From positions 2,348,501-2,412,500 of the forward strand of contig NZ_JADOVJ010000001.1 of assembly GCF_015752315.1 (NCBI RefSeq): 64,000 bases of DNA, read 5' to 3'. Below are positions 21,781 to 42,454 of the stretch, one piece after another (within the stretch, counting starts at the first letter, position 1; every line of letters begins with the position of its first letter). The stretch comes from Nocardioides luteus (GTDB lineage: Bacteria; Actinomycetota; Actinomycetes; Propionibacteriales; Nocardioidaceae). A program made the position numbers and the translations under genes. The notes below the pieces were generated by a model, which saw nothing but the letters and a program-made list of their open reading frames with translations, did no database searches and was not told where the DNA came from.

Positions 21781-21805
21781 GTCATCCAGTTCAGTGGCAC
21801 AATGA

Positions 21806-21826
21806 AAGAACGGCAAGGGTTCTTGC
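21806..21826. promoter_or_regulatory. Nested inverted repeats, candidate operator
   Basis: AAGAAC (21806-21811) pairs with GTTCTT (21819-21824), and within it GCAAG (21813-21817) pairs with CTTGC (21822-21826). They lie in the 73-bp gap between the divergent flavoprotein-methyltransferase and XRE-cupin genes, the natural place for the regulator to bind. Confidence 0.5.
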
Positions 21827-21853
21827 TGAAATGGCAAATGCGAGGTGGAGCAC

Positions 21854-25220: not shown

Positions 25221-26909
25221 TCAACGTTCACGCGCCGCGTGTCCCGCGTGGTTACGGGCTCTGCGGGGGTTTCCGGGGTCTGCAGAGGGCTCGGGCGGCA
25301 CGATGTCGACGACCCGGTCCATCGCGCCCAGGGTCCGGTGGCGGTGGGAGACCACCAGCATCGTGGCCGGGACCGTGCCGAGCAGGTCGGTGACCAGCCG
25401 GGCGGAGGCCTCGTCCAGGTCGGCGGTCGGCTCGTCCAGGATGAGGATCCGCGGGCGGTGCAGGACGGCACGCGCCAGCCGTAGCCGGGCCCGCTGCCCG
25501 CCGCTGAGGCGGAGGCCGCCCTCGCCGATGTGGCTCCCCGGCGTGACCGTACCCGCGAGCCCGAGGCGGGCGAGCAGGTCCTCGATCTCGGCGTCGGTCG
25601 TCGACGGGGCGGCGACGGCCTCGCGCACGGTGCCGCTGAAGAGTGCGCCGTCCTGTTCGACGACGGCCAGCGCGGCCCGCAGGTCGACGTCGTCGACCGC
25701 CGAGATCGCCACCTGGCGCGAGTCGGAGTCCGACAGCGCGACGGTCCCGGTGTCCGGGTCCCAGAGCCGGCCGGCGAGGGCCACCACGGTGGACTTCCCC
25801 GCTCCGGAGGCTCCGCGGAGGCCCACGTGCTCGCCGGGAGCGATGGTCAGGTCGAAGCCGTCGAGCACCCGGCGGTCGTCGTAGCCGAAGCCCACCTCGC
25901 TCATCACGAGGCCGAGCGGTCCCTCGGGCGGAGCGGCCACCGGGGTGTCACGGGTGAGCGCGGCCGGGCGGGCGAGCTCCTTGCCGACGCGAGCGGCGGC
26001 AGCACGCAGGGCGGGCAGCCGGGCGCAGGTGGCGGCCGCTTCGGCGACCGGTGCGACCGTCGCGAGCGCGAGGACGACGAGGGCGGCGACCTGCTCGGCG
26101 GCGACGTCACGGCCGATGACGCCGACCAGCACGCCCACGCCGACGAGCGTCACCGCGGCCTCGCGCGCGCCGGCGAGAACGCGATGGGTGGTCTCGAGCC
26201 TGCCCGCCGCCCGGGCGGCCGCGGCGCCGGTCTCCCTGATCTGACGGCGCACCGGTCCGTGGATGCCGTAGCCCAGCACCTCGCGCAGACCGCCGAGCAC
26301 GTCGACGACACGGTCGGAGAGGGCGCCGGTCGCCTCGACCACCTCGCCTCCGAGCGTCTCCAAACGGCGCCCGCCGAGCGGAACGGTCGAGAGCACGAGC
26401 GCGAGCCCGGTGAGGGTGACCAGCGCGAGCACCGGCTCCACGACGGCGAGGAGGACCAAGCCGAGGAGCGCGTTGACGGCCGCGGCCACGAGCTGGGCCA
26501 CGGTGTGGGCGTAGAAGAACTCCAGACGCTCGGTGTCGCTCATCGCGGTCGATGCGGCCCGGCCGACGTTCTCGCGACGTCTGGTCGGCAGCGCGACCGC
26601 ATAGCGGTCGAAGAGCGCCATCCGGAGCCGGGCGAGCACCCGGAACGCGAGCGCGTGGGAGGCGTCCATCTCGCCCCAGGTCAACACTGCCCGGAGAACC
26701 ACGAGACCGGCCAGCAGTGCCCAGAGCCAGCCCGGGGGCGCGCTGCGGAGCACGACGGCATGGCCGACGGCGGCGGCCAGCAGCACCGAGATCGCCCCCA
26801 GGCACACCTGGCTGACGGCGACGAGCACGATGGTGGCGGCGATGGCGCGGCGCTCGCTGCCCAGGTGTCCGAGCAGGCCGGTGAGGGGCCGCGCGGTCGT
26901 GGCGGTCAT
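25221..26909 (-). CDS. ABC exporter half-transporter 2 of the RiPP operon (CydC-like)
   Basis: A 562-residue half-transporter: six membrane helices in the first 310 residues and a C-terminal ATPase with Walker A GASGAGKST, signature LSGGQRARLRLARA and Walker B ILILDEPTADLD. It resembles the CydDC group. It pairs with the upstream half-transporter (ATGA overlap) and is the last gene of the leftward RiPP operon, so the pair most likely exports the modified peptide. A CydDC role in cytochrome bd assembly is unlikely since no cydAB is nearby. Confidence 0.85.
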   Translation of the reverse strand: MTATTARPLTGLLGHLGSERRAIAATIVLVAVSQVCLGAISVLLAAAVGHAVVLRSAPPGWLWALLAGLVVLRAVLTWGEMDASHALAFRVLARLRMALFDRYAVALPTRRRENVGRAASTAMSDTERLEFFYAHTVAQLVAAAVNALLGLVLLAVVEPVLALVTLTGLALVLSTVPLGGRRLETLGGEVVEATGALSDRVVDVLGGLREVLGYGIHGPVRRQIRETGAAAARAAGRLETTHRVLAGAREAAVTLVGVGVLVGVIGRDVAAEQVAALVVLALATVAPVAEAAATCARLPALRAAAARVGKELARPAALTRDTPVAAPPEGPLGLVMSEVGFGYDDRRVLDGFDLTIAPGEHVGLRGASGAGKSTVVALAGRLWDPDTGTVALSDSDSRQVAISAVDDVDLRAALAVVEQDGALFSGTVREAVAAPSTTDAEIEDLLARLGLAGTVTPGSHIGEGGLRLSGGQRARLRLARAVLHRPRILILDEPTADLDEASARLVTDLLGTVPATMLVVSHRHRTLGAMDRVVDIVPPEPSADPGNPRRARNHAGHAARER

Positions 26910-28564
26910 ACGTGGCTCCCGTCGAGCAGCGGGGTGAGGTGCCCGTCAGCGAGCTCGAGGACGCGCTCGACCCCGTCGAGCGACTCCTCGCGGTGGGCGA
27001 CCACGACCACGATGCGGTCGGCGGAGAGCCGTGCGAGCGTGGCGGTGACGGTGCGTGCCGCGGCCGGGTCGAGGGCGCTGGTCGGCTCGTCGGCGAGCAG
27101 GATCGGCCGGTCCGAGAGGACGGCCCGGGCCAGCGCGATCCGCTGGCGCTGACCGCCGGACAGGCTCGCTCCGGCGCTGGCGATCGGGGTGTCGAGGCCC
27201 GCGGGGAGGCGGCGTACCTCCTCCTCGATGCCGGCCGCCGCGCATGCCTCCCACAGGTCCGGATCGCTCGCGTCGGGGCGGGAGACGCGGAGGTTCTCGC
27301 GGACGGTTCCCTCGAAGAGCACCGGCCGCTGCGAGACCACCGCGACATCGGAGGTACGCACCGGGCGGTCGCCGAGGAGGACCCGGCCGCTGGTGGGGGA
27401 GAGGTGGGTGAGGACCAGGTCGAGGAGGGTGGTCTTCCCGGCGCCGCTCGGGCCGACGACGGCGGTGACCGCGCCGGGCTCGAAGGCGGCATGGACGCCG
27501 TCGAGGATCGCCGGTCCGTCGGGGTAGGCGAACGAGACGTCGTCGAGGACGAGCGCCGCTCCGGGGGATGGCTGCCGGTCGTCCTCGGCCGGGCCGCTCG
27601 TCCCGGTGCCGTGGTCCCGGCCGACGCCGAGCCTTCGCAGCGCCGGGACGGCGGAGGTGCCGAGATAGCCCGCGTGCCAGGCGCCGGCGAGGTCCCGGAT
27701 GGGCCGGAAGACCTCGCTGACGAGCATGAGTGCCAGGTAGAGCTCGGCGGGCGGCACCCCGCTCCCGTTCACGCTGGCCACGAGGGCGAGGCCGGCGGCC
27801 GCGAGGGTGCCACCCTGGACGGCGAGGTCGATGAGCGCGGTGTCGAGCAGCGACGTACGCATCACCCGCACCGTCGCGCGGTGCAGGTCGTGGCTCCGCC
27901 GGGCCATCCGGGCACGCGTCGTCCCGACCTGGCCGAGCAGGCGCAGCGTCGACATCCCGCGGAGGGCCTCGAGCAGGTCGGAGCCCAGGCCCTCGTAGGT
28001 GTCCCAGTGGTCGTCGGAGCGCCGGCGCATGAGCCGCTTCCACAGCAGCGGAGCCAGCAGCGCGGCGGCGGCCGCCAGACCGGCAGCGAGGCCGGTGAGC
28101 GGGTGGACGAGAACCAGCAGGACGGTCACGACCGGGATCAGCACGAGGGCCTCGGCCAGGGCCGGCAGGTAGCGGGTGACGTACGCGTCGACCCCGTCGA
28201 CCCCGTCGACGAGCGCCGTGCGGACACCGCCGTCGCGCCGGCCGGGGTCGTGCAGGGCCGTTGGCACCAGGACGCCGCGCAGCGCCTCGTCGCGCACGGC
28301 GAGGCGTACGTCCTCTCCCAGCCGTGCCGCGGCGCGCGCCTGCATCCACGACAGGAGCCAGCGTGCGGCCACGATCCCCGCGATCCACACCGCTGCCGCC
28401 ACCGCGCGGTCCTCGTCGCCGTCGACCACGGCGAACAGTCCTTGCGCCAGGGCGTAGGCCTGAGGGAGGTGGGTGGCGGTCACCAGGACCTGCAGTCCGA
28501 CGGTGGTCGCGGCGGGTCCGGGATGTCGCAGCGCGGTGCGCAGCAGCAGGGTGTCGACCATCAT
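26906..28564 (-). CDS. ABC exporter half-transporter 1 of the RiPP operon (CydD-like)
   Basis: A 552-residue half-transporter with an exporter-type membrane domain and a C-terminal ATPase (Walker A GPSGAGKT, signature LSGGQRQRIALARA, Walker B ILLADEPTSALD). The start ATG overlaps the stop of the SagB-like gene (ATGA), and its own stop overlaps the next half-transporter. It should form a heterodimer in the membrane to export the peptide product. No N-terminal C39 peptidase domain is present, so leader removal must be done elsewhere. Confidence 0.85.
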   Translation of the reverse strand: MMVDTLLLRTALRHPGPAATTVGLQVLVTATHLPQAYALAQGLFAVVDGDEDRAVAAAVWIAGIVAARWLLSWMQARAAARLGEDVRLAVRDEALRGVLVPTALHDPGRRDGGVRTALVDGVDGVDAYVTRYLPALAEALVLIPVVTVLLVLVHPLTGLAAGLAAAAALLAPLLWKRLMRRRSDDHWDTYEGLGSDLLEALRGMSTLRLLGQVGTTRARMARRSHDLHRATVRVMRTSLLDTALIDLAVQGGTLAAAGLALVASVNGSGVPPAELYLALMLVSEVFRPIRDLAGAWHAGYLGTSAVPALRRLGVGRDHGTGTSGPAEDDRQPSPGAALVLDDVSFAYPDGPAILDGVHAAFEPGAVTAVVGPSGAGKTTLLDLVLTHLSPTSGRVLLGDRPVRTSDVAVVSQRPVLFEGTVRENLRVSRPDASDPDLWEACAAAGIEEEVRRLPAGLDTPIASAGASLSGGQRQRIALARAVLSDRPILLADEPTSALDPAAARTVTATLARLSADRIVVVVAHREESLDGVERVLELADGHLTPLLDGSHV

Positions 28565-29550
28565 CCGTCGGCTCCGTTCTCGAGGATGGCGAGGGCATGG
28601 ACCAGCGGCGGTGAGCCCGCCGGCGGTGTGCAGAACCCGGAGACGGCGCGGACGCCGTGGCCTCGGGCGTTCAGGGCGTAGGTGTGCCGGGCGGCCTCGC
28701 GGTGGAGCTGCCACAGCCGGGCGTAGCCGACGCCGTCGAGACGTTCGGGACGCTCCCAGGAGACGACACGGTCGGCGCCGAGCACCCAGGACTGACCGCT
28801 CTGCCGGGCCACTTCGGCGACGTCCGGCGAGGCGGCGCCCCGGGAGCAGCGGCGGTCGAAGCGATCGAGCGCCGGGCTGCGCCGCGAGCTCATCGCGGAG
28901 CACGCGACCTCGTCGAGGTGAGGTGCGAGCGGAAGCCTGATCCGGGCCAGGGCGATCTCGGGTGCGAGGCCACGCTCGAGCCACCACGCCGTCTGGGTCG
29001 CGCGGGGCAGGCCGAGAGTGTGGTGGGCGAGCGCGAGATCTGACCAGTCCTCGGGCAGGTGTGCCCCCGGGACCAGCAGCAGCAGCGCCTCGAGCGCGTA
29101 CGCCGCGTCGGCGACCCACAGCGGCCAGGCCCGGTGACGGTAGCGGCCGAAGGTGCGGCCGGGCTGAACGGTGACGACGATCTCGGCTGGGCCCGGCGGG
29201 ATCGGGCTGCCCGGATCGAGCCGGCGCACCATATGCTCGGTCTCCGGATGGTAGACGTAGCGCCCCGGCCGGAGGTGGCCGCCACGGCCGGGAGGCACCA
29301 CCAGGTGCCACTGCACCGGGTAGCAGCCGCCCGCCGAGGGCACCGCCCGGCGCGGGACGGATGTCAGGGTCCCGTCGGGGCGCGGATGATGGCCACGCGC
29401 CCGCCACAGCCGGTGGACGGCCGTCGCTGCCGCGCCGCCGACCTCGACCGGCTCGCCTGGCCAGCGGTTCGCGCGCGGCCCCGGCGGCAGCGGAGCGCCC
29501 GGGAGGTCGGGGGAGAAGGCGCTCTCGAGGAGCGCCAGGCTCGAGGTCAT
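28561..29550 (-). CDS. SagB-like azoline dehydrogenase (nitroreductase fold)
   Basis: A 329-residue protein of the SagB/ThcOx nitroreductase-like family. The stretch VPSAGGCYPVQWHLVV matches the FMN-binding PSgGalYP motif, and FGRYRHRAWPLWVADAAYAL is the second typical region. SagB enzymes use FMN to oxidise azolines, made by YcaO enzymes, to aromatic azoles. It is directly downstream of YcaO (13 bp) and overlaps the exporter. The sequence is divergent from streptolysin SagB, so redox competence is inferred. Confidence 0.75.
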   Translation of the reverse strand: MTSSLALLESAFSPDLPGAPLPPGPRANRWPGEPVEVGGAAATAVHRLWRARGHHPRPDGTLTSVPRRAVPSAGGCYPVQWHLVVPPGRGGHLRPGRYVYHPETEHMVRRLDPGSPIPPGPAEIVVTVQPGRTFGRYRHRAWPLWVADAAYALEALLLLVPGAHLPEDWSDLALAHHTLGLPRATQTAWWLERGLAPEIALARIRLPLAPHLDEVACSAMSSRRSPALDRFDRRCSRGAASPDVAEVARQSGQSWVLGADRVVSWERPERLDGVGYARLWQLHREAARHTYALNARGHGVRAVSGFCTPPAGSPPLVHALAILENGADG

Positions 29551-29563
29551 GGTCGGCTGCCGC

Positions 29564-30967
29564 TCACATGTGCGGCGGCGGGCACAGGGCCAGCGGCTCG
29601 TCGGGGTCGGCCGGGGCCCAGCCCCGTTGTCGCGCGGCCTCGCCGAAGCGCGGCATTCCGAGGTAGCGGAACGCGGCGGGGGCGTTCGGCACCAGGCCGG
29701 TGACGAAGGTGCGGACGACCCGCAGCGGCGTCTGCGCCACGTCGCGCGTGGTGAGGTCGCGGGTGATGACCCGGTGACCGCCTTCGTGGAGCCGGCGGCG
29801 CACCTCGGCGACGTCGGTGGCCGGCACCTCGAAGACGGGCACCGTGCCGAGGGCCGGTGCGGTGAACCGCTCCGCGAGCCGGTGCACCCGGGGATCGAGC
29901 CAGACCTGGACGTGGGCGCCGAGGTCGCGGACGTTCGCGAAGTCCGGTCCCGCGGCGTCGAGGTAGCGGCGGTCCTCACGATGGTCGAGGTAGAGGCCGG
30001 GAGCCATCAGCCCGGCGCGTACGGCCTGGAAGACCCAGCCGTCGGCGTCGCGGCAGCCGAGGGTGTAGATCCAGGTGTGGACCGCCTCGAGAACGGCCTT
30101 GCGTACGGCCCGCACCGGGTCGGTGGAGGCCGAGAAGCCCGCCGCGTAGACACCCGTCTCCCGGTCGCGCACGAGGGCGGCCATGGCAGGGGCCAGCTCG
30201 GTGGGCATCTGGACGACGTGGACGTCGAGGGGCGCTCCCTCCAGGTCGGCGCTCAGGCCTGAGACCGACGCGGTGTCGATCCCGCGCGCCGGTCCGCCGT
30301 GGTGCCACCACACCTCGAGGGCGTCGCGCTCGACGACCTCGAGAAGCCCGCGGTCGTGGGCGTCGGCGGCGCCCTGCCCGGTGGCGATGCCGGCGTAGTT
30401 GAGGTGGAAGACGCGGTCCAGGTGGGCGAACCGGCGCTGGCGCCAGTTGAGGCCGACGAGGGCGTGCGGCATCCACACGTCGGCCGCGTCCTCGGCGTAG
30501 CCGGTGACCGGCTGCTCGCGGCAGCGGCTCCACAGCGTCGGCACCTGGTCGTCGAGCACGCGATAGGGGAAGTCGGGGCGGGCGAGCTGATCGGCGCTCC
30601 ACGAGGGGAGGTCATCGAGCTCGATGACAGGTTCGCCCTGGTCCCTCAGCTCGGCGGCGGACCCGAGGCGGAACTCGGCCGGGTCGAGCCCGTCCGGGAT
30701 GAAGTTGCCGCAGTAGCGCTCGACCCCCTCCGCGATCGCGGCGATCCGGGCCCCGGCGACGTCTCCGAAGGTGGTGCCGAGCGAGACCCGGTCGGCCGGC
30801 CAGTCGCCGAGCCAGCGTGCGTCGGAGACCTCGGCCGTCAGCGAGGTGTAGCGCAGCGGCGCCCGCTCGGGGCGGAGCACCTCGCGCACCCGCCGGATCA
30901 GCCCGGTCTCCTTGTCCACCAGCCGCTCGACGTCCAGCGGCGGCATCGCTGTCGGTGACCCGGTCAT
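29564..30967 (-). CDS. YcaO-domain cyclodehydratase
   Basis: A 467-residue TOMM-type YcaO enzyme, which uses ATP to activate backbone amides and cyclise Ser, Thr or Cys side chains into azolines. ATP-binding signatures are visible: ARIAAIAEGVERYCG, GLLEVVERDA and VRKAVLEAVHTW. The C-terminus is proline-rich (ALCPPPHM), as in azoline-forming members where this end reaches the active site. It overlaps the upstream hydrolase by 4 bp. The precursor peptide encoded at the operon head has Ser but no Cys, so oxazoles are the predicted product. Confidence 0.88.
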   Translation of the reverse strand: MTGSPTAMPPLDVERLVDKETGLIRRVREVLRPERAPLRYTSLTAEVSDARWLGDWPADRVSLGTTFGDVAGARIAAIAEGVERYCGNFIPDGLDPAEFRLGSAAELRDQGEPVIELDDLPSWSADQLARPDFPYRVLDDQVPTLWSRCREQPVTGYAEDAADVWMPHALVGLNWRQRRFAHLDRVFHLNYAGIATGQGAADAHDRGLLEVVERDALEVWWHHGGPARGIDTASVSGLSADLEGAPLDVHVVQMPTELAPAMAALVRDRETGVYAAGFSASTDPVRAVRKAVLEAVHTWIYTLGCRDADGWVFQAVRAGLMAPGLYLDHREDRRYLDAAGPDFANVRDLGAHVQVWLDPRVHRLAERFTAPALGTVPVFEVPATDVAEVRRRLHEGGHRVITRDLTTRDVAQTPLRVVRTFVTGLVPNAPAAFRYLGMPRFGEAARQRGWAPADPDEPLALCPPPHM

Positions 30968-31944
30968 GCGTGTCCTCTCTCGGTTGCGGGCGTCGTCGTG
31001 GTCACGAGTGGCCGCTCGGACCAGGCCCGGGAGGCGACATCGAGCCGGAGCTCCTGGCCGGGTGCGGGCTCGCCGTCGGTGAGCCAGCGCAGGATGGTGC
31101 GGCCGGGGGAGCCGGCAGCGTCGTACGCCGCCCGGAGCGCGGGCTCAGTGGTGCCGAGGTCGTGGCCCCAGGGGCCGCTGACCAGGGCGCTCTGCGCTCC
31201 GCTGCGGGAGCCCCACCCGGCCGCCAGCCGGCGGGCGTACGCGTCGAACGGGTCGGCATCGCCGGTGACCACCAGGAGCGGCGCGGTGGCGTCGCCGAAG
31301 TGGTCGGCCAGGTCGAGCGCCGGGGTGGTCCAGAGGTCGCCGAAGGCGTCCAGGCGCGTCGGCTCCCAGCCGAGACCGGCCGCGGCAGCCATCGGGCCCT
31401 CGCGGTCCGCGACGGCGGTCGCGGCCCGGAGGACCTCGGGCGCCAGCGCGGGCTCGGCCCGGCGGCCGAAGCCGTGGATCGCCCACCAGCCGAGCCGGTC
31501 CAGGTGCTGCGGGGTCCCGTCGACGGAGTACGCGGTCTCGTGAGGGCCGAGCGCCGGCACCAGAGCGACCACCCGGCTCATCCGGCGGTCCACGCGCGCG
31601 GTCTCGAGGGCGGTGTGGGCGGCGTAGGAGGCGCCGTAGGCCACCACAGGGGTTCGCGGACAGCGCTGATGCAGGGCGTCGATGGTGTCGACGCCGTCGA
31701 GGGCCTCGGCGGCGTAGGGCCGCCAGCCGCCGCCGGAGGTGTAGCGGCCGCGTACGTCCTGGACCAGGCAGTCGAAGCCGCGACGGGCCAGCGACCGGGC
31801 GAGCGGCAGGTGGGCCTGGGCGTCGTACGGCGTGCGCACGAGCACCACGGCCCGGGCGGCGCCGATCGCGCGGGCCAGCCAGCCGCCGAGGACGACGCCG
31901 TCACGGGTGCCGACCGGGAAGGGAACGACCTCGGGATCGGTCAC
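30964..31944 (-). CDS. CocE/NonD-type alpha/beta hydrolase (S15-like peptidase)
   Basis: A 326-residue serine hydrolase of the X-Pro dipeptidyl-peptidase/CocE family. Ser is in VAYGASYAAH, Asp in VTGDADPFDAY and His in GPWGHDLG, a complete triad. VVLVRTPYDAQAHLPLAR and CLVQDVRGRYTSGG are typical of the fold. Its GTG start overlaps the upstream stop (GTGA) and its stop overlaps YcaO. It may remove the leader or trim the peptide; an esterase role cannot be excluded. Confidence 0.8.
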   Translation of the reverse strand: MTDPEVVPFPVGTRDGVVLGGWLARAIGAARAVVLVRTPYDAQAHLPLARSLARRGFDCLVQDVRGRYTSGGGWRPYAAEALDGVDTIDALHQRCPRTPVVAYGASYAAHTALETARVDRRMSRVVALVPALGPHETAYSVDGTPQHLDRLGWWAIHGFGRRAEPALAPEVLRAATAVADREGPMAAAAGLGWEPTRLDAFGDLWTTPALDLADHFGDATAPLLVVTGDADPFDAYARRLAAGWGSRSGAQSALVSGPWGHDLGTTEPALRAAYDAAGSPGRTILRWLTDGEPAPGQELRLDVASRAWSERPLVTTTTPATERGHA

Positions 31945-32729
31945 CGGGTGGGTCCCTGCGGGCGAGGCGCCGGCTCGTCGAACCCGAGGACCGTGTGGGT
32001 ACGTTCGCGCAGACCGTCCCCGATGACGCGCAGCAGGCGCCGGTGCTCGGCGACGGCGGGATCCTCGGCCGCCCAGTCCTCCAGGATCGACAGGCAGCGC
32101 GCGACCGTGAGCGTCAGGGTCGCCCGGGCCAGCGGCCGGGGGTCGTGGCGGCTGCTGGAGAGCCACGAGGAGAGCTCGGGGGCGGCGGGGGACGCGGCCA
32201 GCCGGCGGCGGCTGACCTGGTCGGGGGTGGCCTCGCTGCCGTCGACGGCGAGCGGGAAGATCAGCATCCGGCTGCCCTCGCGCCGGCCGCGCAGGAGCAC
32301 CGTTCCACCGCTGACGAGCTGCTCCAGGCGCTCGTCGGGCTCGGAGCGCTGCGGAGCCTCGCGTACGTCCACGACGGCATCAGCACGCGGAGTCCGCCCG
32401 CTTCCGTGGTCGCTCCCGTCGGTGCGTCGGACGTCGGCACCCGAGCGCGCCAGCTCGGCGGCCAGCGTGCGGCTGAGCCGGTCGCGGCCGAGGACGAGCA
32501 CTTCGCGCCGGCCCTGGGGCCACCGCGAGGCGCGGACCCGCTCCTCGCGTTCGAGCGCGGCGCGGCGTACGCGCAGGAGGTAGCGGTAGGTCGGGACCCG
32601 GCCGGGTCCGGGCAGGTCGTGCAGCCGGAGGAAGTCGCCCGAGCCGGTACGCAGCGCCGGCATGTCGGGGGAGAGGCGGACCTCGCCGCGGGCGGCGGGG
32701 AGTGGACGCCAGTCGTGTCTGGGGTACAT
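31941..32729 (-). CDS. Putative leader-binding/E1-like partner of YcaO
   Basis: A 262-residue protein I place by context and weak sequence features. The N-terminus (VRLSPDMPALRTGSGDFLRL) resembles the winged-helix RRE region of TOMM leader-peptide-binding proteins. A Rossmann-like segment follows (REVLVLGRDRLSRTLAAELA then RSGADVRRTDG), as in the E1-like or Ocin-ThiF-like partners. It is the first gene after the precursor, with AGGAG before its ATG, and is shorter than full E1-like partners. It should present the precursor to YcaO. Confidence 0.6.
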   Translation of the reverse strand: MYPRHDWRPLPAARGEVRLSPDMPALRTGSGDFLRLHDLPGPGRVPTYRYLLRVRRAALEREERVRASRWPQGRREVLVLGRDRLSRTLAAELARSGADVRRTDGSDHGSGRTPRADAVVDVREAPQRSEPDERLEQLVSGGTVLLRGRREGSRMLIFPLAVDGSEATPDQVSRRRLAASPAAPELSSWLSSSRHDPRPLARATLTLTVARCLSILEDWAAEDPAVAEHRRLLRVIGDGLRERTHTVLGFDEPAPRPQGPTR

Positions 32730-32772
32730 CGGGGCTCCTGGCTGCTCGGTGGTCGATGGTGGGGGAAGGGCC

Positions 32773-32804
32773 GGGGGCGCCGGGCTCGTCAGCCCGGCGC
32801 CCCC
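32773..32804 (-). terminator. Strong stem-loop between precursor and maturation genes
   Basis: GGGGGCGCCGGGCT and AGCCCGGCGCCCCC are perfect 14-bp arms with a CGTC loop. Placed after a peptide gene and before the enzymes, it is likely a partial terminator or mRNA stabiliser that yields more peptide than enzyme. Confidence 0.75.
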
Positions 32805-32860
32805 GCGATCAGACGGTGGCCAGCTCGCCCGAACGGCACGTGGTGCTCACCCGTCTGCGA

Positions 32861-32959
32861 TCAGTCGAAGGGGTTCTCGACCAGCGCGTTCGAGTGGGAC
32901 GCGGACAGGTGCGCCAGCTGCTCGGTGTCCTCGATCTCGCTCACGATGTCGTTGTTCAT
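32861..32959 (-). CDS. Putative RiPP precursor peptide, 32 residues
   Basis: The peptide begins MNNDIVSEIEDTEQLAHLSA and continues SHSNALVENPFD. AGAGGAG lies 6 nt before the ATG and a Zur-type palindrome is about 75 bp upstream. The first 15 residues are acidic, like a leader. The second half has His17, Ser19, Ser21, His22 and Ser23 (HLSASHS), spaced so that up to three oxazoles could alternate with His side chains. There is no Cys or core Thr. A longer in-frame extension upstream runs through the promoter and is rejected. It is not similar to any precursor I can name. Confidence 0.72.
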   Translation of the reverse strand: MNNDIVSEIEDTEQLAHLSASHSNALVENPFD

Positions 32960-33033
32960 CGGTATCTCCTCTGTCGGATCGTTCGACCCGGCGTCGCCGG
33001 GGCCCGCTGGTGCGGACAGCGGCAAAACGTATA

Positions 33034-33048
33034 TGAGAATCATTCCCA
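33034..33048. promoter_or_regulatory. Zur-type palindrome between the divergent RiPP and import operons
   Basis: TGAGAATCATTCCCA matches the 7-1-7 Fur/Zur pattern and shares TGGGAATGATTC (reverse strand) with the rpmB site. It lies 20 bp before the first base of the rightward gene (-35 region) and overlaps the likely leftward promoter (CATATACG), so one site could repress both operons. Confidence 0.75.
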
Positions 33049-33055
33049 ATACCAG

Positions 33056-33061
33056 TAGTGT
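33056..33061 (+). promoter_or_regulatory. Leaderless promoter -10 box, import operon
   Basis: TAGTGT ends 7 nt before the ATG at 33069. The Zur-type palindrome sits 7 bp upstream of it. Confidence 0.65.
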
Positions 33062-33068
33062 TCCGACC

Positions 33069-34271
33069 ATGAACCCCACACTGGTCCTCGCAGACCACCG
33101 CGCCGGCCGCTGGCGGACCTTCGATCCTGGCGCCCTGCCCGGCCCCTGGTCGAGCGCCACGCTGGCCGAGCACGCCGGCGTCCTGACGCTCCCGGCGGGC
33201 GCCCCCGGGGGCGCGCGGGCGGTGTTCGCCGACGACGCCCTCGGCACGCTGGTGGTGCTCGACGGCGCAGGTCAGGCCCGCAGAGTGCCGATCGCGATCC
33301 CCGCCGAGCACCTCGCCTGCGACCCGACCGGTCGCTACGTCGTGGTCACGACCGGCCTCGGCGCCTCGTGGGAGCCGTGGAGCGATCTGGTCACGGTCGT
33401 CGACCTGGCCGACGCGAGCGGCACCACCGCGGTGCGGGTGCGGGTCCGCACCGGCGAGCCCGGCGTCGTGATCGTTCCGGATACCGGAACAGGCGAGCCC
33501 ATGGTCGTGCTGCGGCACCGCGAGCCCGGCGAGGCGGAGGTGATCGCGCTGAGCGACCTGCTCCGGGCCGACCCCCACTGCCCGGTCGTACGCGGCGAAC
33601 GCCTGAAGCTGGCCGGAGATCTCGGCCACGGCGACGCCGTCGACCACCGGTCCGGCGTCGTCCACCTGTCCACCGAGGCGGGCATCGAGCGGCTGCGGGT
33701 CACCGGGGGACGACCCGAGCGCCTCGAGACCTGGCCGTGGCCGGTTCCGGGACGGGCGTACTTCCTGCGGCTCGACCCGGCCGCGGGAATCGTCGCCGCC
33801 GTCCGTGGGGCCGACGCGGACGCGGCGCAGTGGCACACCTGGACGAACCACCTGGTGCGCTGGAGCCTGGACGGCTCCGCCGAGGTGACCCGGACCGGCG
33901 ACGGCCTGGTGTTCCGGCCGGACGCGCTCGACGGAACGGTCGCCTGGACGATCGTGCACCCCGACGGCGACCGGCTGGCGATGCTCGCTGACGGCCGGCT
34001 CAGCGAGGTAGAGCTGCCGCCGATGAGCGCCGCTCCGCGGCCCGGGGTCGCGCCCTGGGACCCGGTGGGCGACCGGTCGGCGCAGCGGCGCGCCCTCGCG
34101 CTGGTCTCGGCCGACCTGGCCGCGGTCACCCGCGGAGGCGACGGCCAGCTCCATCTCGTCCGTGGCTCAGGCATCGAGTCGACCCTGGACCTGGGATCAC
34201 CCTTCGACGAGGGAGGCCACCTGGCCGTTATCAGGGCGCCCGAGGCACAGGTCGACGGGGTCGGACGGTGA
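33069..34271 (+). CDS. Beta-propeller-like protein, first gene of the import operon
   Basis: A 400-residue protein made of repeated four-strand blade-like units (for example YVVVTTGLGASWEPWSDLVT, GVVHLSTEAGIERLRVTGG, GDRLAMLADGRLSEVELPP). It has no signal peptide and no hydrolase domain. It resembles the propeller part of prolyl oligopeptidases, as does the N-terminal half of the next gene, with which it overlaps (GTGA). It may bind the imported peptide or partner the peptidase. The function is inferred from context only. Confidence 0.6.
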   Translation: MNPTLVLADHRAGRWRTFDPGALPGPWSSATLAEHAGVLTLPAGAPGGARAVFADDALGTLVVLDGAGQARRVPIAIPAEHLACDPTGRYVVVTTGLGASWEPWSDLVTVVDLADASGTTAVRVRVRTGEPGVVIVPDTGTGEPMVVLRHREPGEAEVIALSDLLRADPHCPVVRGERLKLAGDLGHGDAVDHRSGVVHLSTEAGIERLRVTGGRPERLETWPWPVPGRAYFLRLDPAAGIVAAVRGADADAAQWHTWTNHLVRWSLDGSAEVTRTGDGLVFRPDALDGTVAWTIVHPDGDRLAMLADGRLSEVELPPMSAAPRPGVAPWDPVGDRSAQRRALALVSADLAAVTRGGDGQLHLVRGSGIESTLDLGSPFDEGGHLAVIRAPEAQVDGVGR

Positions 34272-35953
34272 CCCGCGCGAGCGTTCACGACGCGCTGCGT
34301 CGTGCGGAACGGGCAGGCCGCCCGGGGCTGCCGATGGGCCGGTTCCGGCTCTCACGGTGCCCTGGTGACCTGCTGCCGGTCCTGGTGAACGAGGACAGCG
34401 GGGTCGTGTTCGACCCGGGCGCACGGATCCAAGCCGCGGCACCGTCACCGGACGGGCGCCTGGTCGCCGTCGAGGTCAGCGACGACGGCTCCGAGAACGG
34501 GCGCGTGCTGCTGGCGGACACGGCGTCGCGAAAGGTGACGGAGGTCGAGGGGGTGGCCGTCAGGCACGCGCGGATGGCCTGGGACGACGAGGGCCTGGTC
34601 CTCGTCGACGCCGCCGGTCGCTGCCTGCGGGTCCAGCCCGGAGAGCCGGCGCGGACGCTGTTCGTCGCCGACGCCGGCGAGCGCACGACGCCGATCGGCG
34701 TCGGTGACGGTGTCGGCGTGGTCGTCGCCCGGACCGGAGGGGAGCGGACCCGGCTGGTCGGCACCGACGGCGCGGAGATCCTCGAGCTTCCCCGGGTCCG
34801 CAGCATCACCGCGGCCGGCGACACGGTGCTGGCGGTGACCGGCGAGGAGCTGGTGAGCTTCCGGCTGCCCGGACCGGCACCGGCACGATGCCGGCTCGAG
34901 ACGCTGCCCGGGCTGCCCGTACACGCCCAGGCCGTTCCCGGCGGCGGCCTGGTCCACCTCGTCCGGGACGGCCACTCGGTCCTGGTCCGCCTCACCGCCG
35001 ACGGCGAGGTCCTCGTGCCGACAGAGACCGTGGCGATCTCGGAGCAGCAGGCGGTGCGTACCGTCTCGGGTCTGGTCTGGGCGCGGGACCGCGCCTGGGT
35101 GCGGACCGAGTCGCCGGCCGGGGCACCGCGGGTGCTGCCGGCCGAGGAGGCCGCGCGCTCGACGAACCACGGCCCGCCGTCCCGGCTGACCACGGTGACC
35201 GCGGACGACGGCGCCGAGATCGAGCTCGTCCTGACCGGAGAGCCGGGCGGCGCGACCCTCCTCGAGGTCTACGGAGGCTTCGGCGTGGTCGACCTGCCTC
35301 GCTTCGAGCCCTCGGTCGCCGCCTGGTGCGAGCTCGGCGGGCTGCACGTGACCGCCCGGCTGCGCGGTGGCGGCGGAGCCGGCACCCCGTGGCACACCGC
35401 CGGACAGGGCGCGGGCAAGGCACGTACGGTCGCCGACGCCGTCACCGTCGCCCGCGAGCTGGTACGCCTCGGCTTCACCCGCCCGCACCGGCTGGTGCTC
35501 GCCGGGGCCTCGCTCGGCGGGCTGGTCGCCGTCTCCGCGGCGCTCGCCGAGCCGGGCCTCGTCGCCGGGGTCGCCTGCACGGCCGCACCCCTCGACCCGC
35601 ACCGCTTCACCGAGCACCCCGGCGCGCGGCACTGGAGCGAGGAGTTCGGCGACCCTGGCGACGCCGCGGTGCGAGCCGCGATGGACGACTACTCGCCGTT
35701 CGCGCGCGCCGTCCGCTATCCCAGCCGGAAGTGGCCGCGCTTCCTGCTGACCACGTTCGCGGAGGACTCCCGGGTCGCCCCCGCACCCACCGACCGCCTC
35801 GCCGAGGTGCTCACGGCGCGCGGCGCCGACGTCGTACGTAGCCACCGCCCGCGGATGGGGCACGGCGGCAACCACCTCGACTCCGTGCACGACTTCGCCG
35901 CCGCCGTCCTCGACTTCGCCCTCGACTCAGCTCACCAACCCACAGGAGCGTGA
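34268..35953 (+). CDS. Prolyl-oligopeptidase family (S9) serine peptidase
   Basis: A 561-residue cytosolic protein. The first 310 residues are beta-rich and propeller-like; the last 240 are an alpha/beta hydrolase with the family motif LEVYGGFG, nucleophile Ser in AGASLGGLVA, Asp in FAEDSRVAP and His in RMGHGGNHLD. Such enzymes cut short peptides, often after proline; the predicted precursor has a single Pro near its C-terminus. The position between a propeller gene and a metallophore importer suggests it opens the imported peptide to release metal, or processes the leader. Confidence 0.82.
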   Translation: MTRASVHDALRRAERAGRPGLPMGRFRLSRCPGDLLPVLVNEDSGVVFDPGARIQAAAPSPDGRLVAVEVSDDGSENGRVLLADTASRKVTEVEGVAVRHARMAWDDEGLVLVDAAGRCLRVQPGEPARTLFVADAGERTTPIGVGDGVGVVVARTGGERTRLVGTDGAEILELPRVRSITAAGDTVLAVTGEELVSFRLPGPAPARCRLETLPGLPVHAQAVPGGGLVHLVRDGHSVLVRLTADGEVLVPTETVAISEQQAVRTVSGLVWARDRAWVRTESPAGAPRVLPAEEAARSTNHGPPSRLTTVTADDGAEIELVLTGEPGGATLLEVYGGFGVVDLPRFEPSVAAWCELGGLHVTARLRGGGGAGTPWHTAGQGAGKARTVADAVTVARELVRLGFTRPHRLVLAGASLGGLVAVSAALAEPGLVAGVACTAAPLDPHRFTEHPGARHWSEEFGDPGDAAVRAAMDDYSPFARAVRYPSRKWPRFLLTTFAEDSRVAPAPTDRLAEVLTARGADVVRSHRPRMGHGGNHLDSVHDFAAAVLDFALDSAHQPTGA

Positions 35954-37082
35954 TGACCCCCACCGACATCGCCGTGACCACGGACCAGGCGCCGGCAGAG
36001 AAGCCCCGGACCCCCGGCCAGGTCCCCGCCGTCATCGCCCGGCGCAGATGGCGCGCCCGGCTGCTGACCATCGGCCTCGCCGCCGCCCTCGCCGTGGTCG
36101 TCGCGCTGTCCGCGTCGTCGGGCACCGTGAACCTGACTGCGCTCGACGCCGCCCGTCTGGTCACCGGTCACCTGCTGCCCGGGATGCCGTGGATGAGCGA
36201 CGGCACCTACACCGTGCTCCAGGACCAGGTGGTGTGGCAGTTCAGGCTGCCCCGCGCGCTGCTCGCCGCACTGGCCGGGGCGGCACTGAGCCTGGCCGGG
36301 GTGTTCATCCAGGCAGTCGTACGCAACCCGCTGGCCGAGCCGGCGATCATCGGCGTCTCCTCGGGCGCGGGCGTGGGCGCGGTCTCCGTCGTGGTCCTGG
36401 GCGCGGCGGCGGTCGGTGCCTGGGTCGGGACCGCGGCGTTCCTGGGCGCCGCGGTCGCGACCGCGGCCGTGTTCGCGGTGGCGTACAAGAACGGCAGCAT
36501 CGCCCCGCAGCGACTGGTGCTGACCGGGGTCGCGCTGGGCACCTTCTTCAGCGCGATCACGAGCTATCTCACGCTCACGACCGAGGCGCAGAACGTGTTC
36601 AGCGTGATGTTCTTCCTGCTGGGCTCCGTCTCCGCCGCCACGATGACCGACCTGGCCGGACCGCTGGTGGCCCTCGTGGTCGCTCTCGGCGTCTCGGTGA
36701 CCACCGGACGCGCCGTCAACGCGCTGCAGGTGGGTGACGAGACGGCCACCGCGCTGGGCGTCCGGGTCAACCGGCTGCGGTCGGTCCTGCTGCTCGCCGC
36801 CGCGCTGCTCACCGGCACCGTGGTCGCCGTCGCGGGCGGGATCGGCTTCGTCGGCCTGGTGGTCCCGCACATCGCCCGGGTGCTGGTCGGCTCCGACCAC
36901 CGGCGCATCGTCCCGGTCGCGGTGCTCGGCGGCGCCCTGTTCCTGTGCGGCGCCGACCTGATCGCCCGGACGGTCTCGGCGCCCGCCGAGGTGCCGCTGG
37001 GCATCATCACCGCGCTGATCGGGGTGCCGTTCTTCCTGTGGCTGATGCGCGGCCGGGCCGCCGACGAGCAGGGGATGGCGCG

Positions 37083-37086
<4 letters not shown>
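35953..37086 (+). CDS. FecCD-type metallophore ABC permease
   Basis: A 377-residue permease of the FecCD/BtuC type with about ten membrane helices. FRLPRALLAALAGAALSLAG, VFIQAVVRNPLAEP and GGIGFVGLVVPHIARVLVG are signatures of the family. It imports metal chelates or B12-like compounds with the next two gene products. AGGAG lies 4 nt before the ATG, which overlaps the preceding stop (TGATG). As it is single, it should form a homodimer. Confidence 0.9.
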
Positions 37087-37870
<784 letters not shown>

Positions 37871-37874
<4 letters not shown>

Positions 37875-38884
37875 ACACCACCCCACTGCTGCGCACCGTC
37901 CCGGTCGCGGCGCTCATGCTCCTGGCCGTGACCGGGTGCGGCGGCACCGGCGTCACGAACGACGCGGCGGCTGCCGGTGAGGCCGCCGAGGGCTACCCGG
38001 TGACCGTGGAGAACTGCGGACGCCAGGTCACGGTCGAGTCCGCTCCCGAGCGGATCGTCGGGCTCAGCCCGGCCCAGACCGAGCTGCTCGTGCGCCTCGG
38101 GGTCGCGGACCGGCTCGTCGGCCAGGCGCAGACGGCCATGCACGAGCTCCCCGAGGACGTCGCCGCGAAGGCGAGCGACGTGCCGGAGCTGAGCACGGAC
38201 GCACCACCGGCCCGCGAGCAGCTGCTCGACGTGCAGCCCGACGCCGTCGTCGCTCCGACCGAGTACGAGTTCACCGCCGAGCAGGGCTTCGCCACGATCG
38301 ACCAGCTCACCGACGCGGGCGTGACCACGTACGTCGCCGCCGGCGGCTGCCCCGAGCGCCGCGCCACGGGCGAGGTCACGGACCTGTTCACCGACCTGGA
38401 GGCGCTCGGCAGCATCCTCGGGGTCCCGGCGGCCGCCGACGAGCTGGTCGCCGAGACCCGCGCCGACCTCGAGGCCGTCGAGAAGGCCGTGGCGGACCGC
38501 CCGCGGCCCACCGTGGCGCAGCTCTACGTCGAGGGCAAGACGCTCTCCGCGATCGGCGCGGGGGTGGAGTACGACATGATCGAGCGCGCGGGCGGCGAGA
38601 ACGTCTTCAGCCCGGACGAGAAGCTCTTCGAGCAGTTCTTCTCCGCGGTCGTCTCGCCGGAGGAGATCGCCGCGCGCAACCCGGACGTCATCGTCTTCGC
38701 CGTGCGCGAGCAGGCCGAGGCCGAGCGGGTCGAGACGTACCTGCGCCGGACCTTCCCCGACCTCACCGCCGTCAAGGAGGACCGCTTCGTCGCGCTGCGC
38801 ACCCCGGACACGTTCCCGGGCACGCTCGGCAACGTCGCCGCGGTGCGGACGATCGCGGAGAGGCTGCACCCCGACGCCTTCTGA
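37871..38884 (+). CDS. Metallophore-binding lipoprotein (FecB/BtuF-type)
   Basis: A 337-residue exported binding protein. The signal peptide ends in the lipobox LAVTGCGG, so it is anchored outside the membrane. Typical class III features are PERIVGLSPAQTELLVRLGV near the start and a central helix leading to the second lobe (RPTVAQLYVEGKTLSAIGAG). It should capture the metal-loaded ligand for the permease. The ligand may be the modified peptide; a siderophore or cobalamin is possible on sequence alone. Confidence 0.9.
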
Positions 38885-38895
38885 GTCGGGTGGGG

Positions 38896-38938
38896 CGCCG
38901 GCCACCGGACCGTCCTCGGGGCGGCCCGGCGGCCGGCG
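38896..38938. terminator. GC-rich inverted repeat between convergent operons
   Basis: CGCCGGCC and GGCCGGCG pair around a 27-nt loop that can itself fold. It sits in the 61-bp gap between convergent genes and may stop transcription both ways. Confidence 0.4.
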
Positions 38939-38945
38939 TCGGTGT

Positions 38946-40688
38946 CTACTCTCCGGCGAGAAGGCGCCAGCCCTCGGCCTGCGTACGCTCGCGCCAGAAG
39001 TCGAGGTAGCGGCCGCCGTGCGCCAGGAGCTCCGCGTGGGAGCCTCGTTCGACGATCCGGCCGCCGTCGAGGACGACGATCTGGTCGGCGGCGACGACGG
39101 TCTGGAGGCGGTGGGCGATGACGATGACCGTACGGTCGGCCGACAGCGCGGTGAGCGCCTCCTGCACCGCGGCCTCGTTCTCGGCGTCCAGGGCGGCGGT
39201 CGCCTCGTCGAGGAGCACGACCGGGGCGTCCTTCAACAGCGCCCGGGCGATCGAGACCCGCTGCTTCTCGCCGCCGGAGAGCGTGGAGCCGGCCTCGCCG
39301 ATCCGGGTCTGCCAGCCGTGGGGGAGCCGCTCGACGATGTCGTCCACGCGCGCCAGCCGGGCGGCCTCCCGCAGCTCCTCCTCGCTGGCGTCGGGCCGCG
39401 ACATCATCACGTTGTCGCGCAGGGTGCCCTCGAAGAGGTAGACGTCCTGGAAGACGATCGAGACGCGCCGCATCAGCGCCTCCGTCCCGAGATCGCGTAC
39501 GTCGACCCCGCCCAGCATCACCGAGCCCGCCGTCACGTCGTGGAACCGGGCGACCAGACGCAGCAGGGTGCTCTTTCCCGAGCCTGAGGGCCCGACCACG
39601 GCGGTGAGCGAGCGAGGCGGAACCGTGAGGGACACCTGGTCGAGCACCTGGGTGGCGCCGTCGTAGGAGAAGGCGACCTCGCGCAGCTCGATGCCGCTGT
39701 CGGCCGGCTCGCCGGGCGTGGCCGGCTCGGGGAGCGGCTCGAGGGCGAGCACGTCGAGGACACGTCGCAACGAGCCCTCGGCGATGCGCAGCGCGCTGGA
39801 GAGCTCGCCGTAGTCGATCAGCGACTCGACGAACCGCACGGTGAGCACGAGCAGGCCGATCGCCGTGGCTGGTGCCAGCGTTCCGCCGAGGCTGAGGTGG
39901 ACGGCCAGCGCGATCACCAGGGTGAGCAGCGCCTGGATGGAGAGGAGCTGGATCCCCAGGCCGCCGAACCCGGTGACCAGGAGCCGTCGTGAGGCCCGCT
40001 TCTGCTGCTTCAGCGCCGCCTCGACCAGCTCGTTGCCGTGGACGGTGCGTCCGAAGACGCGCAGAGCCGGCTGGTTGAGCGCGAACTCCACCACCCGCGC
40101 CGAGCCCTCCGCCATCGCCGCGTCGTAGGCGCCCTCGCCGCGGCCTACGATCACGGCCAGCAGCCGGGTGGTGGCCAGGACCGCGACGACGCCCACGAGG
40201 AGCGCGAGCGCCAGGCGCCACTCCAGGAACGCCATCGCGACGACCACGGTGACCGGGCTGACGACGGCGGCGATCAGCGGCCGCAGCAGGTGCCCCGGCA
40301 CCGAGGCGATGTCGGTGGCGCCCTTGGAGGCCATCCGGGAGAGCTGTCCGGTGCGGTCCTGGGCGTACCAGCCCAGCGGCAGCCGCACGGTGTGGTCGCC
40401 GAGGCGGCCCAGGGTGATGTCGAGCAGGTCGCAGGCCAGGTCGTAGCCGTCCAGGTTGCCGACCGTCAGCGCGACGTGATGGGCCACGAAGAGCCCGGCG
40501 AGCACCCCGAGCCAGGTGGTCGCGGCGTCCCAGTCCTGGCGCAGCGCGGCGTCCAGGACGGGGACGACGCAGGCGAAGGCCAGACCCTGGAGCACGCCGG
40601 TGGCGACGAACATCGCCACGACCCGGGCGAGCTGGCGTCGATGAGCGTGGTCGAGAAGGTCCGCGAGCAGACGGACGATGATGATCAT
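38946..40688 (-). CDS. IrtB/YbtQ-like ABC half-transporter
   Basis: A 580-residue exporter-fold half-transporter: six membrane helices (DRTGQLSRMASKGATDIASV is typical of the siderophore-linked group) then an ATPase with Walker A GPSGSGKST, signature LSGGEKQRVSIARALL and Walker B VVLLDEATAALD. Mycobacterial IrtAB and Yersinia YbtPQ share this fold but import siderophores. It overlaps the upstream half-transporter by ATGA. Its placement next to the FecBCD importer suggests import or intracellular handling of the chelate. Confidence 0.8.
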   Translation of the reverse strand: MIIIVRLLADLLDHAHRRQLARVVAMFVATGVLQGLAFACVVPVLDAALRQDWDAATTWLGVLAGLFVAHHVALTVGNLDGYDLACDLLDITLGRLGDHTVRLPLGWYAQDRTGQLSRMASKGATDIASVPGHLLRPLIAAVVSPVTVVVAMAFLEWRLALALLVGVVAVLATTRLLAVIVGRGEGAYDAAMAEGSARVVEFALNQPALRVFGRTVHGNELVEAALKQQKRASRRLLVTGFGGLGIQLLSIQALLTLVIALAVHLSLGGTLAPATAIGLLVLTVRFVESLIDYGELSSALRIAEGSLRRVLDVLALEPLPEPATPGEPADSGIELREVAFSYDGATQVLDQVSLTVPPRSLTAVVGPSGSGKSTLLRLVARFHDVTAGSVMLGGVDVRDLGTEALMRRVSIVFQDVYLFEGTLRDNVMMSRPDASEEELREAARLARVDDIVERLPHGWQTRIGEAGSTLSGGEKQRVSIARALLKDAPVVLLDEATAALDAENEAAVQEALTALSADRTVIVIAHRLQTVVAADQIVVLDGGRIVERGSHAELLAHGGRYLDFWRERTQAEGWRLLAGE

Positions 40689-42454
40689 GCCGACTCCTCC
40701 CGGGCCCGGCCGTCCACCGGGTGGGCGCGCTGGTCGGCGGCCCAGAGCCGGGCGTAGCGCCCGCCCCGGGCGAGGAGCTCGTCGTGGGTGCCGAGCTCGG
40801 CGATCCGGCCCTCGTCGAGGACGACGATCTGGTCGGCCGCGGTGACCGTGGAGAGGCGGTGGGCGATCACCAGCAGCGTACGTCCGGCGACGAGGCGGGA
40901 CAGCGCCCGCTGGACGAGCGCCTCCGACTCGGGGTCGGCGGCCGCGGTGGCCTCGTCGAGCACCAGGATCGGGGTGTCGGAGAGGAGTGCTCGGGCGATC
41001 GCGACCCGCTGCCGCTCGCCACCGGAGAGCTGGCCGTCCTCGCCGACCACCGAGTCGTAGCCCCGCGGGAGCTCGTCGATGCGGCCGGCGATCTGCGCCG
41101 CCTCCGCCGCGCGCCGAACCTCCGAATCGGGCGCCTCCGGGTGGGCGAGCCGGATGTTGTCCCGGATCGAGGTACGCAGCAGCCCGGTGTCCTGGAAGAC
41201 GAAGGAGACCTGCTCGTAGAGCTGCGCGCTCGTCATCTCCCGCAGGTCGACCCCGGCGATTGTGATCCGGCCCGATGTGGGGTCGGCGAAGCGGGGCAGC
41301 AGCTTCGCGAGGGTCGACTTGCCCGAGCCGGAGTGGCCGACGAGCGCGGTCACCGTCCCCGGCTCGAGGACCAGGTCGATGTCGTGGAGCACGGGCGGTG
41401 CGCCGGGGGAGTAGGCGAAGGAGACGCCGTGGAGCTCGACGCGGGACGAGGCCGGGACCGGCGTCGGGGAGGACGGCTCCGGGAGCTCCGGCTCGGCCAG
41501 CAGCCGCTGGATCCGCCGGGCCGCCTCGGTCGCCTCGCGCAGCTCGCGCGCGGCGTAGCCGGCCACGGTGACCGGCGCGGTCATCGCCAGCCCGAGGACG
41601 AGGAACGGCACCAGGTCGGGCCCGGTGATCCACGAAGCCCGAAGCATCCAGACCCCGCCGCCGAGCACGAGGACCAGGGTCAGCGCCGGTGTCAGCGCGA
41701 GCTCCATGAGCAGCATCCCGAAGGCAGAGTGACGCATCCAGGCCCGGTTGAACCCGCCGAACCGGGTCGCGACCTCGGCCAGCCGCCGGTGGGCCTGACC
41801 GGTCGCGCCGAACGTCTTGATCTCGGCGATCCCGCCGGTGTTCTCGACCGTCGCCGCGGCCAGCTCGGCCAGGCCGGCGTCGTAGTCGCGGTAGAGCGCG
41901 CCCGCGCCCCGCATCGAGATCCGGAACCCGACCAGCCCGAGCGCGAGCGGCACCAGGGTCACCAGGGCTAGCGGTGGGGAGACCACGAAGAGATAGACGG
42001 CGACGACCGAGGGCAGCGTGATCGCCGCGGTGAGCTCCATGACCGAGTGGGCGACCAGATGGTGCAGAGCGGCGACGTCGTCCTGCACCGCCTTCTTCAC
42101 CGTGCCTGAGTTGCGCTCGGTGAACCACGCCAGCGGCACCCGGCCGAGGCGGGCGACCAGCAGGCGCCGCAGGTGGATGGAGAGGTCGAGGTCGGCGACG
42201 TGGGAGAGCCACGAGGAGCCGAGCACCGTCGCCAGGCGCACCAGCAGCGCCGCCACGCTGATCCAGACCACGACCCAGGCGCGGCCCGCGTCGACGGGCG
42301 ACCCCGAAGCCGCGGGCAGCAGGATCCGGGCGAGCTCGACGATCCCGATCAGCGGCACCAGCCCGGCGAGGGTCGAGACGACCATCAGCAGCAGGCTGCC
42401 GACCAGCCTTCCCCGGACAGGACGAAGCGTCTGGAGGAGGGGAGAGCGAGCCAA
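40685..42454 (-). CDS. IrtA/YbtP-like ABC half-transporter
   Basis: A 589-residue half-transporter with six membrane helices (RNSGTVKKAVQDDVAALHHL is the family signature) and an ATPase with Walker A GHSGSGKST, signature LSGGERQRVAIARALL and Walker B ILVLDEATAAAD. It pairs with the next gene. It lacks the siderophore-interacting reductase domain fused to IrtA of mycobacteria. The start is TTG with AGGA 6 nt upstream. No Zur-type site is seen in the 41-bp gap before it, so it may be read through from the TrkA genes. Confidence 0.8.
   Translation of the reverse strand: MARSPLLQTLRPVRGRLVGSLLLMVVSTLAGLVPLIGIVELARILLPAASGSPVDAGRAWVVVWISVAALLVRLATVLGSSWLSHVADLDLSIHLRRLLVARLGRVPLAWFTERNSGTVKKAVQDDVAALHHLVAHSVMELTAAITLPSVVAVYLFVVSPPLALVTLVPLALGLVGFRISMRGAGALYRDYDAGLAELAAATVENTGGIAEIKTFGATGQAHRRLAEVATRFGGFNRAWMRHSAFGMLLMELALTPALTLVLVLGGGVWMLRASWITGPDLVPFLVLGLAMTAPVTVAGYAARELREATEAARRIQRLLAEPELPEPSSPTPVPASSRVELHGVSFAYSPGAPPVLHDIDLVLEPGTVTALVGHSGSGKSTLAKLLPRFADPTSGRITIAGVDLREMTSAQLYEQVSFVFQDTGLLRTSIRDNIRLAHPEAPDSEVRRAAEAAQIAGRIDELPRGYDSVVGEDGQLSGGERQRVAIARALLSDTPILVLDEATAAADPESEALVQRALSRLVAGRTLLVIAHRLSTVTAADQIVVLDEGRIAELGTHDELLARGGRYARLWAADQRAHPVDGRAREESA

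Follow-up and report, generated by a model that had tools for sequence, protein, structure and literature searches.

Which signal switches on a small ribosomal peptide cluster that carries both its own exporter and its own importer, and what is the peptide made for? The question is raised by two divergent operons in a 64,000-nucleotide stretch of Nocardioides luteus DNA (contig NZ_JADOVJ010000001.1; hereafter, the window), one running leftward from 32959 and encoding a 32-residue peptide and six proteins, the other running rightward from 33069. The peptide class is already known: judged by its sequence, it belongs to the published streptamidine (ami) family, given a match to profile NF040714 over the cut-off and a gene set matching the published ami cluster (PMC8442711). 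What is new here is the regulator, Zur, and promoter sequences from this and related loci argue that the cluster is very probably under its control, with exporter and importer sharing one predicted regulon.

The evidence for Zur starts between the two operons. The sequence TGAGAATCATTCCCA at 33034-33048 agrees at 10 of 11 specified positions with the motif tGaNNatSatNNtCa, obtained for Zur of Streptomyces coelicolor by chromatin immunoprecipitation on microarrays (ChIP-chip; PMC5472717), and it is also an exact match to the strict motif used below for counting sites in the genome. Relatives were found via AmiD, the best 80 of 212 being taken; amiA could be placed in 70 of these, while the other 10 were dropped because no amiA was found by pattern (L061, L064, L065, L068, L070, L073, L074, L092, L106, and L128). 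Several of the dropped loci are cut by contig ends, and three (L061, L065, and L073) still have a 10/11 box at a distance of 555-599 bp ahead of the amiB match. When a box is called at 9 or more of the 11 motif positions in the 250 bp scanned upstream of amiA, 67 of the 70 loci possess one (29 with 11/11, 23 with 10/11, and 15 with 9/11), centred 126-180 nucleotides (nt) before the core match. The corresponding control rates are 2.9% for dinucleotide shuffles, 3.3% for random windows of the same loci, and 9.6% for windows matched in GC content, the last two being upper bounds, since genuine second boxes remain in them.

As Streptomyces contributes 30 of the 70 scored loci, the count was also made on promoters thinned to 38 dissimilar ones, 36 of which carry the box. 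At least one box-positive locus occurs in 22 of the 23 genera, the exception being a single Jiangella, and the box is present in 15 of 18 further loci outside the 70 (26 minus 8 that duplicate loci of the main set; three of the 18 come from one genome, G081). A de novo motif search on the 38 promoters, uninformed of Zur, returned AaATGAtAATCATTtTCAtTA (width 21), and at width 15 the motif reached 565 bits, compared with 73-76 in five shuffled sets. The core HLSATH is found in 21 of the 70 loci, 20 of them with a box. Separate importer promoters have it too, in 26 of 26 loci with the Streptomyces-type layout, where it lies between the propeller and fec genes, and in 7 of 11 loci whose fec operon is placed on the far side of the exporter genes. 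A preliminary description of this DNA had placed a Zur-type palindrome at exactly this position and read it as the regulatory element of the peptide system, a reading that conservation across the family supports.

The same motif marks zinc genes elsewhere in the 5.82 Mb genome. The strict motif has eight exact sites, one at ami and five at zinc-uptake or alternative ribosomal-protein genes (aztA/aztB, two at a znuA-like gene, one before L31-MRF-L32-S18-L36, and one before L33); of the other two, one precedes a methionine aminopeptidase gene and one has no clear meaning. Allowing one mismatch gives 19 sites, versus 12 for a reversed control pattern, and exact sites alone are therefore telling. 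Close to the cluster lies zur itself (16800-17213, minus strand), whose best solved relatives are 3mwm (E = 8.6e-44), which we take to be S. coelicolor Zur, and 2o03, a 'probable Zinc uptake regulation protein FurB' (E = 5e-39). A Zur-like box with one mismatch to the strict motif stands between zur and the L28-S14 genes (17280-17294), and exact sites stand before L31-MRF/CobW-L32-S18-L36 (22453-22467) and before the minus-strand L33 gene (24758-24772). The cluster thus does adjoin a zur regulon, as had been proposed, with alternative genes for L28, S14, L31, L32, S18, L36, and L33 alongside; these ribosomal protein names were assigned by eye, and the match of the MRF/CobW protein reaches 138 bits, short of the cut-off of 375. 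The genome encodes four Fur-family proteins, one of them nearest 3eyy, presumably Nur. Control by iron (DtxR) or nickel (Nur) was rejected, as neither consensus box is enriched at amiA promoters. A generic Fur box is enriched (14.2 vs 9.8 of 19 positions), because it overlaps the Zur box.

The precursor gene amiA (32861-32959, minus strand, with GAGGAG upstream of the ATG) encodes MNNDIVSEIEDTEQLAHLSASHSNALVENPFD, 32 residues long, which scores 67.3 bits with NF040714 (cut-off 40) and has the predicted core HLSASH. The reference cluster is that of Streptomyces albidoflavus J1074 (MIBiG BGC0002115), the loci analysed here being other than J1074 itself. According to the streptamidine paper (PMC8442711), to which all statements on streptamidine below refer, the product has the core HLSATH, a six-membered amidine ring, and no azole. 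The major streptamidine type comprises more than 90 clusters with amiA-E, amiT1/T2, and a FecBCDE-like importer, and clusters of streptamidine type were counted by the authors in more than 230 species; the role was left open, metal import being their guess (PMC8442711). The window shares with J1074 the precursor family, AmiB-E, AmiT1/T2, and the FecBCDE-like importer, but differs in having a single permease gene, an added S9 peptidase, and a divergent layout. Where the preliminary description saw an uncharacterised thiazole/oxazole-modified microcin, the ribosomal peptide and the YcaO protein are real, but the family is a published one (NF040714) and its known product is an azole-free amidine (PMC8442711). 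The word 'Zur' is absent from the main text of that paper, and our search, whose coverage left out most subscription literature, found no publication linking YcaO or ribosomally synthesized and post-translationally modified peptide (RiPP) metallophores to Zur or zinc.

The leftward operon continues from amiA, on the minus strand, with genes for an AmiB-like partner, a CocE/S15 hydrolase, a YcaO protein, a SagB-like dehydrogenase, and two ATP-binding cassette (ABC) exporter halves. The amiB-like gene (31941-32729) encodes a putative E1-like or leader-binding YcaO partner, named from its position and from 29-38% identity to proteins in the amiB position of other genera. The window's protein has no family match, TIGR03882 included; that model is weakly matched by 2 of 14 AmiB relatives, the window's own protein not among them (best E 0.002), and the AmiB profile gave only insignificant matches in the PDB (best E 0.014). 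The CocE/S15-type hydrolase gene amiC (30964-31944) matches PF02129 at 59.6 bits (cut-off 23), and TIGR00976 at 65.6 bits, slightly below the cut-off of 66.3. The YcaO cyclodehydratase gene amiD (29564-30967) matches PF02624 at 136.7 bits (cut-off 25.7), and TIGR03604 at 188.7 bits, under the cut-off of 219.25; it is the sole YcaO match in the genome, shares 49-66% identity with 11 relatives, and gave a predicted structure with a pLDDT of 78.7. The SagB-like dehydrogenase gene amiE (28561-29550) has a weak match to TIGR03605 (21.8 bits, cut-off 78.4). The start codons of amiC and amiE were picked by eye. The exporter genes amiT1 (26906-28564) and amiT2 (25221-26909) are nearest CydD (339.5 bits, below the cut-off of 435) and CydC (202.2 bits, below 329.05), respectively.

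The rightward operon, on the plus strand, opens with a beta-propeller gene (33069-34271), possibly the published amiX, judged by position. It is followed by an S9 prolyl-oligopeptidase-type peptidase (34268-35953; PF00326, 86.2 bits, cut-off 22.6), which, like the propeller, lacks an evident signal peptide. The importer consists of a FecCD-type permease (35950-37086; FhuB, BtuC, and F420-0 permease models, every one below its cut-off), a FecE-type ATPase (37083-37874; TIGR03873, 284.7 bits, below 372.4), and a FecB-type substrate-binding lipoprotein (37871-38884; TIGR03868, 145.4 bits, below 392.4) with a lipobox-like LAVTGC and relatives in the PDB, which were of no help in naming its ligand. 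Both operons are, in their gene content, what had first been described. The propeller fold is nearest that of the zinc chaperone AztD. Membership in the AztD family was rejected for want of sequence support: NF038015 matched none of 14 propeller relatives at E values up to 10, and alignment with the genome's own AztD by hhalign gave a probability of 0.5%. The propeller occurs in 16 of 394 genomes of the class, and all 16 are among the 19 that carry the precursor, those without it being G146, G156, and G384. A search with the propeller for genomes having only the importer (up to four candidates scored per listed genome) found none beyond the ami carriers among the 394.

The gene set, the precursor family, the box in the window and at the promoters of relatives, the neighbouring zur with its predicted targets, and the ami-only propeller are all supported at the level of sequence; around them, we infer a course of events that would serve zinc acquisition. 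A streptamidine-family RiPP repressed by Zur and used to acquire zinc is the best explanation of the locus, and it is held with moderate confidence. Zinc-loaded Zur would bind the box and repress both operons, and zinc starvation would derepress them. The core HLSASH would be cyclised by AmiB/AmiD and the leader removed by AmiC, as proposed for streptamidine, giving a small, His-containing product with a predicted [M+H]+ of 633.3103. AmiT1/T2 would export this peptide, which would capture zinc outside the cell; the zinc-loaded form would re-enter via FecB/CD/E, and zinc would be freed in the cytoplasm, with the S9 peptidase and the AztD-fold propeller assisting. The peptide is a likely aid to zinc acquisition because the Zur box stands at the ami promoter and at nearly every related promoter; that the product itself carries zinc is somewhat more probable than the contrary.

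Several observations weigh against this explanation. On the side of the regulator, the box falls below 9/11 in three of the 70 loci (L060, 8; L082, 7; L113, 8) and in three of the 18 further ones (L042, 8; L043, 8; L048, 7), of which L042 and L043 have better boxes ahead of the propeller gene (11/11 and 10/11). Boxes are also weak, with 8, 7, and 9 of 11, in the three of seven motif-B relatives (NF040715) that were scored. In a genome this rich in GC, the loose published consensus lacks specificity, matching 122 sites when up to one mismatch is tolerated, against 14 for the control, and a sigma-70 promoter was sought around the window's box and none was found. On the side of the function, the nearest importer models are those of iron, B12, and F420-0 transporters, below cut-off. 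The claim of a metallophore, made in the preliminary description, meets negative published data, which are the chief weakness of the zinc-acquisition reading: purified streptamidine bound none of Fe, Co, Cu, Mg, Mn, Ni, and Zn, and an amiD mutant behaved like the wild type under metal starvation (PMC8442711). Deletion of importer genes abolished production (PMC8442711), an outcome not expected if the importer served uptake alone, and one that zinc acquisition leaves unexplained.

The negative binding data concern one purified product. A weak zinc complex could be lost in acidic liquid chromatography-mass spectrometry, and a mutant's phenotype could be hidden by other zinc importers. The authors point out that the product shows no oxidation although the dehydrogenase is essential, and that an oxidised part may have been removed (PMC8442711). 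A wider proposal is that the streptamidine family, which is widespread in Actinobacteria, forms a genetically encoded, Zur-controlled ribosomal zincophore system, complete with exporter, importer, a peptidase acting in the cytoplasm, and an AztD-like propeller that receives the zinc. Binding would have been missed because the hexapeptide represents a fragment or degradation product of the working ligand, or because a partner is needed for zinc to be held; we consider the chances of this proposal to be evenly balanced.

The published results can also be read differently. Under Zur control, the peptide might be a signal of zinc starvation, exported and taken up again through the FecBCD-type transporter, that acts within or between cells without carrying zinc. 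The lack of metal binding and of a starvation phenotype would fit such a signal, as would the abolished production upon importer deletion, and signalling or development was suggested by the authors themselves (PMC8442711). Nevertheless, the importer resembles siderophore and B12 carriers, not oligopeptide permeases, and the propeller is most similar in fold to a zinc chaperone, so that a signal appears unlikely. A Zur-controlled peptide could, alternatively, harm competitors in zinc-poor places, the importer serving other uptake or immunity. Klebsazolicin and bottromycin, which also bear amidines, are antibacterial, as told in the streptamidine paper; streptamidine itself, however, showed no antibacterial or antifungal activity in the tests it reports (PMC8442711), and no immunity gene was recognised, which makes such a weapon highly improbable. 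Least probable of all is a product carrying another metal, iron or cobalt, with the box bound by another Fur-family regulator, for while importer relatives carry iron or B12, the genome has the Nur-like protein among its four Fur-family members, and the generic Fur box is enriched, DtxR and Nur boxes are not, and sites of the motif found at ami also stand at aztAB, znuA, and genes for alternative ribosomal proteins in this genome.

Zinc acquisition by a Zur-repressed peptide remains the preferred explanation, and the limits of the unit can be drawn from close relatives. An IrtAB-like ABC pair next to the importer had been counted in the metallophore system; the pair is real and adjacent, but it was rejected as a member, as three close relatives carry it without ami. 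An irtA orthologue with at least 91% identity is present in 6 of 98 genomes of the genus, the window's included, with the precursor in G000, G408, and G431 and without it in G394, G404, and G443. In the latter three, HU is followed directly by the IrtAB-like pair, beside alternative ribosomal protein genes and with no ami between, whereas in G431, G408, and the window the whole ami block lies between HU and irtAB. The ami genes are therefore a block that was either acquired or lost within a zinc neighbourhood, of which IrtAB is background; boxes at 40673/40679 fall within the coding region of the pair. Genes of such a neighbourhood lie near a minority of loci: 17 of 107 have any of eight query genes in reach, mostly one or two. 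Several such genes lie near L031, L032, and the Streptomyces loci L120 and L124, and the locus L179 (G452), of a second subtype, lies near a ribosomal operon with a box.

This second Nocardioides ami subtype (L039, L049, and L178-L181) has precursors reading ...HSAGHSNALVENPFDE or similar; YcaO and the hydrolase were matched, tblastn detected none of amiB, amiE, and the propeller, and amiA is preceded in all six loci by a box of 10/11 or 11/11. A decayed locus, L050 (G384), has a broken precursor, a propeller fragment, and no tblastn match to amiB-E or S9, and keeps the exporter, the importer, and a perfect Zur box; such a remnant would suit a cell that depends on product made by its neighbours, although this is a single case. 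The 3.5 Mb genome G081 contains three near-identical ami copies (L046, L047, and L048), of which two lie close to contig ends; the promoter of the third copy scores only 7/11. Another ami cluster lies on the linear 533 kb plasmid pNit of Rhodococcus rhodochrous (L182:2936-16773), where the start of an annotated amiA has a 10/11 box 87 nt upstream, and the unit can therefore move. Motif-B relatives occur in 7 of the 394 genomes; their precursors (L131-L137) lack a His-Ser core, and palindromes in their promoters, for example TGAAAACCATTTCCA, look like degenerate Zur boxes.

Other sites in the window's genome (G000) show the kinds of genes on which the motif falls. A complete AztABCD system (L199:4367-9238, near 196532), with all four proteins over NCBIfam cut-offs, has its box between the divergent aztA and aztB. 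A znuA/znuB-like pair (L198:4575-7423, near 1428413) has two tandem boxes 22 bp apart at the znuA-like start. An exact match to the strict motif also lies 10 bp ahead of the start of a type I methionine aminopeptidase gene (L200:2180-2959, minus strand, near 2015368; TIGR00500, 243 bits, cut-off 171), which makes a zinc-regulated enzyme possible. In the window, an open reading frame at 20221-22164 (minus strand) reads by eye as a thioredoxin-reductase-type oxidoreductase fused to an S-adenosylmethionine methyltransferase.

The conserved Zur box points to a likely signal, zinc starvation, and thus to the culture conditions under which the working product should be sought; if it carries zinc, the zincophores would come to include ribosomal peptides. 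Methanobactin is a ribosomal peptide metal carrier, but it carries copper and is made by other enzymes than those of ami, and coelibactin, unlike the ami peptide, is a non-ribosomal peptide. The coelibactin cluster, called an 'enterobactin-type zincophore' and repressed by Zur in Streptomyces, resembles ami as a Zur-controlled secondary metabolite with a proposed role in zinc supply (PMC5472717). The zinc transporter AztABCD, with its chaperone AztD, is likewise said to be controlled by Zur and, like ami, sets a propeller fold beside an ABC importer (PMC6689063). AztD, however, is extracytoplasmic (PMC6689063), whereas the ami propeller has neither an evident signal peptide nor a sequence match to AztD, and the ami importer is of the FecBCD type, not the AztABC type.

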